This document shows positions 60,066 to 64,000 of a DNA stretch of 64,000 nt, one piece after another. The position numbers and the translations under genes are program-made. The notes under the pieces are model-generated. The model had not been told where the DNA came from, did no database searches, and saw nothing but the letters and a program-made list of their open reading frames with translations. This DNA is from Sphingomonas sp. LM7 (GTDB taxonomy: Bacteria; Pseudomonadota; Alphaproteobacteria; Sphingomonadales; Sphingomonadaceae). The stretch lies in NCBI RefSeq assembly GCF_002002925.1, contig NZ_CP019511.1, forward strand, positions 3,255,001-3,319,000. Direction: 5' to 3'. How positions within the stretch are numbered: the stretch's first letter is position 1; every line of letters begins with the position of its first letter.

Positions 60066-60329
60066 ATGGCGCAGATGAACATCTCGATCCCCGACAAGCT
60101 CAAGGGCTGGGCGGAACAGCGCGTCGCCGAGGGGCGCTACAGCAGCACCAGCGACTATGTGCGTGATCTGGTGCGGCGGGATCAGGAACATGCGGAGAAG
60201 CTGCGGGCGCTGCGAGCCGCGATCGACAACGGGTTGGCGTCGGGCGTGAGCGAGCGCGATCCGTTCGAGCTTCTGGACGAAATGCGCGACGGTTTGCGCG
60301 CGGCGGCGCGGAGCGCGGATGCGGCTTGA
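60066..60329 (+). CDS. parD: ParD-type antitoxin
   Basis: 87 residues. A ribbon-helix-helix protein: MNISIPDKLKGWAEQRVAEGRYSSTSDYVRDLVRRDQ is the conserved DNA-binding part, and the acidic, Ala-rich C-terminus would wrap the toxin. It represses its own operon in known systems. There is a second possible start (ATG 60075). It overlaps parE by 11 bases. Confidence 0.9.
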   Translation: MAQMNISIPDKLKGWAEQRVAEGRYSSTSDYVRDLVRRDQEHAEKLRALRAAIDNGLASGVSERDPFELLDEMRDGLRAAARSADAA

Positions 60330-60603
60330 GCTGAGCCGCGAGGCTCAGGCCGATCTCGACGATATTCGCGACTATAGCGTCGCACAGTTCGGCGTCCCCC
60401 GCGCGATCGCGTATCTGGATGCAGTGGAACAGGCATTTCGTCGGGTGCTGGATTTCCCCGAAATCGGCGCAGTGCGGCCAGAGCTTGCCGGCGTTCGATC
60501 GCTTGGCTGCCAGCAGCACCGGCTTTTCTACACCGTCGATGGCGAGACGATCCGTATTGTGCGCATCCTGCACAAGGCGATGGATGTCGAGCAGTGGCTT
60601 TGA
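60319..60603 (+). CDS. parE: ParE-type toxin
   Basis: 94 residues. RelE/ParE superfamily: LELSREAQADLDDIRDYSVAQFG, then QHRLFYTVDGETIRIVRILHKAMD, ending in the family's typical basic-to-hydrophobic end. ParE proteins poison DNA gyrase. All conserved parts are present, so the toxin looks intact. It overlaps parD by 11 bases. Confidence 0.9.
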   Translation: MRLELSREAQADLDDIRDYSVAQFGVPRAIAYLDAVEQAFRRVLDFPEIGAVRPELAGVRSLGCQQHRLFYTVDGETIRIVRILHKAMDVEQWL

Positions 60604-60791
60604 GGGCAGTAAGAAGTCTGAAGTAGGTATTGTGTCCCGGAATTCCAAGCTGATTCAGTTTCCGTGAGTGTTGGAGGCGTTGCAGGTGGTTGAGGTTTGG
60701 GGAATTTTGCAGCCGTAAAGGTACTGCTGCCGTAACTGCGGTGACATCCTTATCGAACCCGTTCCGCATTGCGTTAACGATCAATGCAAAG

Positions 60792-60809
60792 TAACGTTCA
60801 CGTTATGAT
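60792..60809 (+). promoter_or_regulatory. Palindrome over a -10 box upstream of the effector-like gene
   Basis: TAACG TTCA CGTTA (60792-60805) is a perfect inverted repeat that runs into TATGAT (60804-60809), a likely -10 box 17 bases before the start codon. A matching -35 was not clear. This could be an operator for a repressor. The rest of the 223-base gap from 60604 holds nothing I can identify. Confidence 0.4.
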
Positions 60810-60826
60810 CTAATAGGGGCGAGTTG

Positions 60827-62029
60827 ATGAGCGATACGAATGGCCCGGCCACTCCTGCGAAACCTAAGGCAGCAAAGTCGGTGCAGACAACTGCTAAGCG
60901 ACCAGAAGCTGCAGCTTCCGCCAGTATCGCAGCGAAAGCAAAGCGCACCCGGACTGTGAGAAATTTTCCTGCTTCTGATTTTGAAGAACCTCTTGAATTC
61001 GCAAAGCAATTGCTGGAATTTGGCGCGGGGCAGCCGGTCCGCAGAGTTTCTCTTTTTAATCACATGGGAAAATCGTCGGAAAGCGGTGGTAGCCGGCAGT
61101 TAATCACTAACGCCGGAAAATATGGACTGATCAAAGGTAGCTATCAGGCTGAGCTGCTTGAACTCACGCCTGACGGAAAAAAGGCAGCGGACGATCAAAT
61201 TCAGTCCCGTGAGCGCGCACGTGCTAGGATCGAATTAGCTATCATGGGCGTCGAGCCCTTCAAAGGCCTTTACGAACGCTTTAAGTCTTTAAAGTTACCC
61301 GCCAAGGCTGCCATGGTTGATGCCGCTAAGGAGCTTGGCGTATCTTCGGACGCCGCCGAGGAAGCGGTAGATACCTTTGTAGTCAACCTTCGCTTTACTG
61401 GCCTTCTGCAAACGTTGTCTGGCGCTGATCGGATTATAACTGTTGATCATCTTCTAGAGGAGTTGCCAACAAGTGGCAGTCTGTCCGGTCACGCCACAGA
61501 GCTTCCCGCCCGTACGGAATTGATGACGTCTGATCAGGCCCACTTTGAGAGCATGGCGTTTTACATCACGCCAATCGGCCATGAGGGGGCCGAGCAACGG
61601 CAGCACTCAGATCTTTTCCTCGGGTCGATTGTTGAGCCGGCCTTGGAATCGCTCAAACTTACAGTGGTCAGAGCAGATAAAATCGATCGTCCAGGTGTAA
61701 TTACGAAGCAGGTAATCGAGTATCTCATGAAAGCTCGATTAGTTATCGCAGACCTATCATACCATAATCCAAATGTATTTTACGAACTAGCGGTACGCCA
61801 TATGCTTAAAAAGCCCGTCGTCCAAATAATGCGCTCGTTGGACACGATACCGTTTGACGTGAACCAAGTCCGCACCATAACGATCGATACCACTAGTATT
61901 TATACACTTACCCCAAAACTTGATGCTTATCGCGCTGAAATTGCGACGCAAGTGCGTCGAGCATTAGAAAACCCCGATTCGGTCGATAGTCCAATTTCTA
62001 TCTTTTTCCCCTCAGACGGCACGGGGTGA
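60827..62029 (+). CDS. Unknown low-GC protein with nucleoside-deoxyribosyltransferase/TIR-like C-terminus
   Basis: 400 residues. A Lys/Ala-rich, probably disordered stretch at 8-45 is followed by a helical domain with a winged-helix look (about 47-200: SGGSRQLITNAGKYGLIKGSY). The C-terminal domain (about 235-390) has DLFLGSIVEPALESLKLTVV, RADKIDRPGVITKQVIEYL, LVIADLSYHNPNVFYELAVR and KKPVVQIM. This matches the deoxyribosyltransferase-like fold related to TIR NADases, with candidate catalytic D309 and E320. Base composition is clearly lower in G+C than its neighbours, which suggests transfer. It has its own promoter region and a GGGGCGAG ribosome site. Function is unknown; a defence or signalling effector is a guess. 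Confidence 0.75.
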   Translation: MSDTNGPATPAKPKAAKSVQTTAKRPEAAASASIAAKAKRTRTVRNFPASDFEEPLEFAKQLLEFGAGQPVRRVSLFNHMGKSSESGGSRQLITNAGKYGLIKGSYQAELLELTPDGKKAADDQIQSRERARARIELAIMGVEPFKGLYERFKSLKLPAKAAMVDAAKELGVSSDAAEEAVDTFVVNLRFTGLLQTLSGADRIITVDHLLEELPTSGSLSGHATELPARTELMTSDQAHFESMAFYITPIGHEGAEQRQHSDLFLGSIVEPALESLKLTVVRADKIDRPGVITKQVIEYLMKARLVIADLSYHNPNVFYELAVRHMLKKPVVQIMRSLDTIPFDVNQVRTITIDTTSIYTLTPKLDAYRAEIATQVRRALENPDSVDSPISIFFPSDGTG

Positions 62030-62074
62030 TTGCTTGCGAGTGCGCCTCGCTCGACAATAGGGCAACCCAAGCCC

Positions 62075-62894
<820 letters not shown>

Positions 62895-62917
62895 TGCCCT
62901 CTCCCCGCCCCTTCGGG

Positions 62918-63412
62918 TCAACAGCGCTCCGCATTGTTGACGTGCGTCGCAACAGTGCGCGGTCTCGGTGCATCGCATTGCCAGACCCTCACCTCTTCCT
63001 CGAACCGCTCTCCGCCGCTGCGGTGACTGGCGATGAAGTGGATGCGGGTGGGGACGATGCTGCCGCCCTTATATTCGGGCCGGATTTCCAGCTCGTTTTC
63101 TTCATGCCCCTGCACGAAGCGGCGGAGCCTGCCGACGATCGCGGCGTGCGCTTCGGCGGCGTCGGGCGTGACGTAGACGATGTTGCGCGGATCGTCGTCC
63201 CCGCCCAGGTTGGTGGGGAAAAGATAGATCTTTACCAGCGATCCGAAGGCTAGCAGCCTGTCGGCATGCTCCCGGGATCGTATCTGGGAGAATTTGAAGG
63301 GCATCGGCGGCGCGCCCAACAAGATGACTCTTTGCGCCAGCGTGCCGGGGGCGACGACGAGCGCGCCGGGCAGCAGCGACGCTCCGACCAACAGCCGCCA
63401 TGCCCGTGTCAT
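62918..63412 (-). CDS. Exported protein of unknown family (paralogue B)
   Basis: 164 residues. Signal peptide ends near APGTLAQ. The mature domain shares with paralogue A the segments FPTNLGG, VYVTPDAAEAHA, ELEIRPEYKGGSIVPTRIHFIASHR, GERFEEEVRVWQC. GGGAG lies eight bases upstream of the ATG. It is 23 bases upstream of paralogue A on the same strand, so the two are probably cotranscribed. Function unknown. Confidence 0.75.
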   Translation of the reverse strand: MTRAWRLLVGASLLPGALVVAPGTLAQRVILLGAPPMPFKFSQIRSREHADRLLAFGSLVKIYLFPTNLGGDDDPRNIVYVTPDAAEAHAAIVGRLRRFVQGHEENELEIRPEYKGGSIVPTRIHFIASHRSGGERFEEEVRVWQCDAPRPRTVATHVNNAERC

Positions 63413-63540
63413 TGCGTCATCTCCCGGTTGCCTTGCTGCGCAGGCTATCAGGTTTGTATCGGTTTTGGGGGCAAGCTCGTCCATTCCGGAGGTGATTCTG
63501 CACGACCATGCGCGCTCCTTCCCTTGCAGCGAATGGTCCC

Positions 63541-63569
63541 CCTCCCCGAGGCGAGCTCGGGGAGGAATT
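63541..63569. repeat. Dispersed hairpin repeat downstream of thiC
   Basis: CCTCCCCGAG (63541-63550), loop GCGAG, CTCGGGGAGG (63556-63565), then AATT. This is the same design as the hairpin at 10338-10366. It lies in the gap after the thiC stop, where it may affect 3' end formation of the thiC mRNA. Confidence 0.7.
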
Positions 63570-63577
63570 AATGGGTC

Positions 63578-64000
<423 letters not shown>

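Follow-up and report, generated by a model that had tools for sequence, protein, structure and literature searches.

The nearest experimentally described design that we found for the gene considered here is Swarozyc, which a preprint (PMC13174449) presents as a TIR-like NADase whose winged auxiliary (AUX) domain binds the phage portal and whose defence is lost when a glutamate is mutated. The gene lies at 60827 to 62029 in a 64,000-nucleotide stretch of Sphingomonas sp. LM7 DNA (NZ_CP019511.1, positions 3,255,001 to 3,319,000; hereafter the window) and encodes a 400-amino-acid (aa) protein with two winged helices in tandem (the N-module) and a TIR/DrHyd-like C-terminal domain (the C-domain). 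It is probably a self-destruct defence gene, and its family has no name in the databases searched. The role that we favour, with fair but far from full confidence, is that of a single-gene sensor-effector abortive-infection protein that senses through its winged helices and destroys NAD+ or another nucleotide; both the activity and the trigger are ones that we infer. We prefer this role because of the one-chain architecture, the conservation of E320 and D309, the foreign block that carries the gene, the sporadic spread of the family, its placement in a hotspot, and the recurrence of the N-module on other enzymes.

Swarozyc and the window protein each join a TIR-like domain to a helix-turn-helix (HTH) or winged domain in one chain, each has a conserved catalytic glutamate (putative here), and both are patchily spread; moreover, a Swarozyc-type DUF4062 gene holds the same hotspot, at the 3′ end of thiC, in another genome (G008; L199:2871-3860, minus strand). 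Unlike Swarozyc, the window protein carries its winged module at the N terminus, in reversed order and as a tandem pair, and has no match to DUF4062 (PF13271). Given this reversed order and missing match, we file the protein as working like Swarozyc rather than as a member. The CAP12/Pycsar TIR effectors (PF10137) are likewise TIR-like effectors, and in two loci (L126 and L136) they are joined to the same N-module, but the window C-domain lacks a PF10137 match, and a profile comparison, made with three CAP12-type sequences only, gave 3.8% probability and an E value of 0.011. Members of the DrHyd branch of the TIR-DrHyd-SLOG clade have been proposed as NADase effectors in the accessible parts of one study (PMC9503650), where a fusion to the N-module is not described. 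DNPH1/Rcl and the MilB nucleotide N-hydrolases have this fold too, and a weak profile alignment indicates that the glutamate is also shared; the window protein differs in its fusion to winged helices, in having no membership at the sequence level, and in apparently missing the DNPH1 aspartate. The recognition parts of FokI and Nt.BspD6I, and SspB, were also listed among the closest known systems. The single-protein TIR/DrHyd effector is an already known kind; what is new is a family unmatched in Pfam and NCBIfam and a reusable tandem winged-helix module.

Architecture and C-terminal fold

The reading frame opens with an ATG at 60827 (an in-frame TTG stands at 60824) and runs without internal stop to the stop codon at 62027-62029. 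Its parts are as follows.

60827..62029, plus strand: gene for the 400-aa tandem winged-helix and TIR/DrHyd-like protein (open reading frame [ORF], alignment, and model)
60827..60961, plus strand: residues 1-45, basic tail of low complexity (net charge +8, with a median of +6 over 40 aligned sequences)
60962..61462, plus strand: residues 46-212, tandem winged-helix N-module, proposed sensor (structure models)
61463..61540, plus strand: residues 213-238, variable linker (alignment and model)
61541..61981, plus strand: residues 239-385, five-stranded TIR/DrHyd (nucleoside-glycohydrolase) fold (model and fold searches)
61751..61753, plus strand: codon of D309, at the end of strand 3, invariant
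61784..61786, plus strand: codon of E320, the putative catalytic residue, within helix 317-326, which follows strand 3, invariant

The full-length AlphaFold2 model has a predicted local distance difference test score (pLDDT) of 73.5, with values near 90 in the N-module, about 60-83 in the C-domain, and below 50 at residues 1-9 and 11-41; modeled alone, the N-module reaches 95.1. The first-pass annotation, made from the sequence alone, had described one winged-helix-like domain at the N terminus. The winged helix stands, while the single copy gives way to two in tandem behind a basic low-complexity tail.

With moderate confidence, the C-terminal half is modeled as a TIR/nucleoside-glycohydrolase (TIR-DrHyd-SLOG) fold, with strands at residues 243-247, 279-282, 305-310, 331-336, and 348-353. 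Fold searches with residues 239-385, Foldseek among them, matched DNPH1/Rcl (the top Foldseek match), MilB, and TIR domains, with BlsM and a deoxyribosyltransferase also among the matches; the C-domain was therefore not placed in an unrelated family, although flavodoxin-like proteins score alike. The residues first suggested as a plausible catalytic pair, D309 and E320, are invariant both in an alignment of the window protein with 39 of 120 listed relatives (40 of 40) and in 32 of 32 C-domains from several phyla (the window and 31 of 62 family loci).

In profile searches, the window protein has no Pfam or NCBIfam match up to an E value of 10, Nuc_deoxyrib_tr (PF05014) and DUF4062 included, and its sole PADLOC match is a weak one to a TIR effector model (E = 1.1e-6, residues 258-356). 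Among the 40 aligned members, six Pfam models matched at E ≤ 1, the commonest being AAA_assoc_C (10 members; best E = 0.00069); no TIR, deoxyribosyltransferase, or DUF4062 model was among them, Nuc_deoxyrib_tr and DUF4062 each matched none of the 40, and PF10137 matched neither these members nor the window protein. Two proteins that share part of the window protein (L085 and L216) have PF05014 matches below the cut-off.

Relatives and recurrence of the N-module

In a search of 5.8 billion proteins, 7998 candidates were scored, and 3899 of them are relatives with E ≤ 1e-3, a similarity well in excess of chance. In the 120 listed, source names, where present, read hypothetical or uncharacterized, and none carries a precomputed Pfam domain. 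When 84,980 species were represented by one genome each, 159 relatives were found, scattered sporadically from Proteobacteria to an archaeon; the best 80 of these were kept, namely, 62 full-length family copies, as judged by match position, and 18 matching the C-domain only. By a stop-to-stop count, the frames of the 62 copies (L001-L062) are open in 49, broken in 8, and partial at contig ends in 5. Broken frames thus make up 8 of the 57 testable copies, or 9 with a doubtful one whose N-terminal tail lies in another frame (L014), and assembly errors may account for some. In the window's genus, a full-length copy is absent from all 60 other genomes examined.

Full-length copies also occur in two viral contigs (L226 and L227). 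Relatives of the C-domain were found in 40 phage records, 35 of them from Staphylococcus or Streptococcus, and in 83 plasmid records, with no plasmid or phage record covering 80% of the query; in two phages that we inspected, this gene is antisense to the adjoining genes. According to PMC9503650, phages of Staphylococcus and Streptococcus hosts carry a distinct TIR version, which may correspond to these C-domain relatives. In one further locus, a C-domain relative forms the leading part of a protein that also carries TPR-S and MAP3K_TRAF_bd domains (L083:535-2058, minus strand), and proteins named TRAFs-binding recur among the plasmid matches.

The N-module also recurs apart from the C-domain. 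Among 397 Sphingomonadaceae genomes, full-length relatives are present in three (the window's own, G000, together with G424 and G355), and four loci match over the N-module only. In two of these, L126 and L136, the module is joined to CAP12-PCTIR_TIR (E = 7.6e-15 and 1.3e-16, over the cut-off); in the other two (L135, 1192-2001, and L138, 1045-1776), a Pfam scan found no enzyme domain. Among 398 genomes of the phylum, the N-module is present in 7 besides the window's own. One of these proteins, of 463 aa, carries it on another DrHyd-like domain (L216; Nuc_deoxyrib_tr E = 0.0012, under the cut-off), and in the remaining six, of 242-354 aa (L214, L215, and L217-L220), no enzyme was recognised by eye. 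In the scanned proteins, the tandem winged-helix cassette itself has no Pfam match. In our reading, a single recognition cassette serves several killing domains. Whether the cassette is a sensor common to single-gene defence proteins with differing killing domains (DrHyd-like, other DrHyd-like, and CAP12-type TIR), which Sphingomonadaceae exchange at the 3′ ends of thiC and uvrA, with the thiC site serving the whole family as an exchange point for single defence genes, is in our view evenly balanced.

Locus of the gene and the sites at thiC and uvrA

The gene stands out from its surroundings in base composition, as the first-pass annotation had remarked. Its guanine-plus-cytosine (GC) content is 0.504, and its GC at third codon positions (GC3) is 0.49, against GC3 values of 0.69-0.89 in 11 other measured genes of the window. 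Among 1268 sliding 600-bp windows over the 64 kb, 27 have GC below 0.55; they form a single run, over the gene's block. This AT-rich block is foreign. The GC drops just past the stop of the upstream ParE gene (60603) and rises just past the stop of the gene (62029). The features of the locus are as follows.

60604..62029, no strand: low-GC block bearing the gene (GC about 0.5 versus about 0.66)
60066..60329, plus strand: neighbouring ParD-type antitoxin gene (ParD_antitoxin, E = 6.5e-9)
60319..60603, plus strand: neighbouring ParE-type toxin gene (ParE_toxin, E = 2.7e-20)
62079..62363, minus strand: displaced copy of the thiC 3′ end (90% identity to the intact end), about 50 bp past the gene's stop
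63578..64000, minus strand: 3′ part of the intact thiC, the hotspot gene, which continues beyond the window

The toxin-antitoxin (TA) pair noted earlier beside the gene is thus borne out by its Pfam matches. Its GC3 is closer to that of the chromosome (0.83 for ParD and 0.69 for ParE); therefore, the pair need not share the gene's insert. The scan covered five neighbours in the window, namely, ParD and ParE, one HTH protein, and a further two genes without a name. Between the displaced and intact thiC ends (62370-63484, minus strand) lie two genes that contain repeated stretches of DNA and match no Pfam model.

We examined the 3′ side of thiC in two sets of genomes that overlap only in the window's own. 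The same-genus set comprised 37 genomes, its own included, 34 of which have a usable thiC end (none is listed for G007, G015, and G019); within 2 kb, a 600-bp stretch with GC below 0.55 is present in 20 of the 34. As a control, we took the 5′ side of thiC (syntenic thiC-desaturase intervals of at least 1.2 kb), where such a stretch occurs in 0 of 19 genomes, against 8 on the 3′ side of the same 19. For the second set, 149 family genomes were surveyed, of which 139 have thiC, and the 30 highest-ranking thiC matches were taken; 21 of these 30 have a low-GC stretch within 1.5 kb; here the window's genome counts as negative because its insert lies just beyond that distance. The low-GC stretches hold mostly unrelated single genes and mark a hotspot that spans the genus and the family (window 62030-63580; L180, L182-L212, and L257-L285). 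In G004, where thiC shares 93% identity with that of the window, the same spot is taken up by an AAA_22 ATPase together with a toxin resembling ParE (L180).

In the first set, 22 low-GC cargo genes of at least 140 aa were collected, and ten were scanned individually. Nine matched DUF4062 (8e-18), AIPR (4.9e-18), RelA_SpoT (1.8e-13), DndB (7.1e-17), AAA_21 (2.7e-19), AAA_22 (3e-10), DUF3800 (6e-18), 5′-nucleotidase (3.1e-110), and NYN (1.2e-5); the tenth gave only a sub-threshold match to SIR2_2 (0.062). Several of these families, such as DUF4062, AIPR, and AAA_21, are linked to defence, the names AIPR and AAA_21 referring to abortive infection. At E ≤ 1e-5, the 22 genes matched 99 PADLOC models, and among those listed, two members match PtuA, Old, and GajA-type ATPases. 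A lone low-GC gene at the thiC site looks SIR2-like by eye, its Pfam match being sub-threshold (L189:326-1378, minus strand), and an ORF 3′ of thiC in G133 (L273) carries the motif NPNVLIELG and is perhaps a TIR/DrHyd-like candidate, also by eye.

Target-site duplication was considered as a general rule at thiC and rejected, since, when 35 stretches were each compared with the thiC end of their own genome, a long duplicate was found only in the window; three others have matches of 20-29 nt. When the thiC end of the window served as query instead, G011 showed two further thiC 3′ termini behind an intact thiC (L190, 1202-1282 and 1907-1977), suggesting repeated insertion at the site. Second partial thiC matches lie 0.5-1.7 kb away in at least G152, G154, G157, G178, G203, and G268.

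Members of the family were also met at thiC, and at uvrA, in other genomes; since homology is what led to these (L019, L020, L049, L175, and L176) and to the variants, they are kept outside the hotspot rates. In G424 (L175), an intact copy sits at the thiC 3′ end, convergent with thiC, with stops about 30 bp apart and YefM/YoeB behind it. Broken copies lie about 2 kb from the thiC 3′ end in S. kyeonggiensis (L019) and about 350 bp from thiC, on the same strand, in a Pseudolabrys metagenome-assembled genome of another order (L049); the CAP12 variant L136/L174 is about 0.9 kb from the thiC 3′ end. The 3′ end of uvrA is a second landing site for the family and for its CAP12-TIR variant. There, one copy is convergent with uvrA and about 25 bp from its end (L020, 11209-11243), another has one gene between (L176, 10084-10843), and the CAP12 variant L177/L126 (L177, 7222-7631) is about 0.4 kb away. 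Both effector versions therefore occur at both sites. Another sphingomonad copy (L002) has neither thiC nor uvrA within 10 kb. No description of a thiC defence hotspot was found in the literature searched, most subscription papers lying outside that search. We count the thiC/uvrA exchange site among the new features, for thiC on the basis of this literature search.

Neighbourhoods, competing roles, and a proposed mechanism

From 38 distant loci with more than 20 kb of sequence, 32 were drawn at random; 304 genes of at least 100 aa lie within 5 kb of them, and 289 were scanned with PADLOC in two sets, in which 4 and 85 models matched. Among the matches listed are PDC-S18, a DRT-type gene, a reverse transcriptase (RT), a type IIG enzyme, PDC-S11, and mad genes. 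For comparison, 25 control stretches elsewhere in these genomes (another 7 do not exist) supplied 217 genes, of which 129 were scanned; they matched 63 models, with a BREX cluster among those listed. As PADLOC output counts per model, not per gene, the two were compared informally, and we claim no enrichment by neighbours.

Several of these results weigh against a defence role. Known defence genes, beside which the first-pass annotation proposed to count homologues, show no obvious enrichment near the 32 loci relative to the control stretches, and plain metabolic genes dominate the 25 listed of 100 Pfam families in one neighbour set. A low-GC stretch 3′ of thiC is absent from 14 of the 34 same-genus genomes, and hotspot cargo is not uniformly defence-like. 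In addition, flavodoxin-like proteins score alike in the fold searches, and the pLDDT of the C-domain is moderate. On the other hand, the housekeeping-only neighbourhoods that would have spoken against defence are not what we see, as homologues occur sporadically and, at this locus, share a cargo hotspot with genes of defence-linked families.

An alternative is a metabolic or house-cleaning role, in which the protein would be a DNPH1/MilB-like nucleotide N-hydrolase or a deoxyribosyltransferase and its winged helices would serve nucleotide-responsive regulation. The DNPH1, MilB, BlsM, and deoxyribosyltransferase matches of the fold searches suit this role, as does the 5′-nucleotidase among the hotspot cargo. 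We nonetheless consider it unlikely, given the missing Nuc_deoxyrib_tr match, the lack of a full-length copy in all 60 other same-genus genomes, the foreign base use, the defence-linked cargo of the hotspot, and frames broken at a rate unlike that of a needed housekeeping gene.

Slightly less likely still is that the protein makes a signal of the cyclic ADP-ribose type, or senses one, and relies on a second protein as its effector, in the manner of Thoeris or CBASS. TIR and DrHyd domains are capable of either, according to PMC9503650, and the model behind the sole PADLOC match is named for a TIR effector. A recurring partner gene, as this would call for, did not emerge from an all-against-all comparison, in which no neighbour cluster extended beyond 7 loci; the naive gene caller often called antisense ORFs where GC content is high and may have overlooked partners. 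A CBASS nucleotidyltransferase did not appear among the five scanned window neighbours, although no search was aimed at it. The window gene's neighbours are the TA pair and the thiC remnant, and in L175 and L020 the gene stands alone beside thiC or uvrA.

We find it improbable that the gene is a selfish toxin or addiction gene of a mobile element rather than a phage sensor, even though it adjoins ParDE in the window and YefM/YoeB in L175, a ParE-like toxin is present in the L180 hotspot, and copies are found in viral contigs and in decay. No small antitoxin gene was seen by eye in the low-GC block, the TA genes differ from it in base use, and the recurrence of the N-module on different TIR-like domains points to recognition more than to addiction. 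Highly improbable is an effector of the retron type, in which a deoxyribosyltransferase-like part and a winged helix would be kept in check by RT and RNA, after the operons with NDT-like and winged-helix genes described in PMC12548924, as no RT was recognised by eye in the ORFs of 56-64 kb, none recurs at relatives' loci, and the listed RT models each match 1 of 139 neighbours in one set and the DRT-type model 1 of 150 in the other.

Under the abortive-infection role that we favour, the winged-helix module would recognise an infection signal, either phage nucleic acid or, by analogy with the winged AUX domain of Swarozyc, a phage structural protein. Recognition would assemble or unlock the C-terminal domain, E320 would attack the N-glycosidic bond of NAD+ or another nucleotide, and, with the pool lost, the cell would stop or die before phage release.

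If this is true, a widespread single-gene defence family unrecognised by the annotation libraries searched would gain a name, and one candidate sensor module would be linked to several interchangeable TIR-like killing domains, while Swarozyc, a portal-sensing NADase reported recently, would offer a parallel that can be tested. In a bacterial family that is under-studied, the 3′ end of thiC would then be a site from which new defence genes could be read directly in the sequence.
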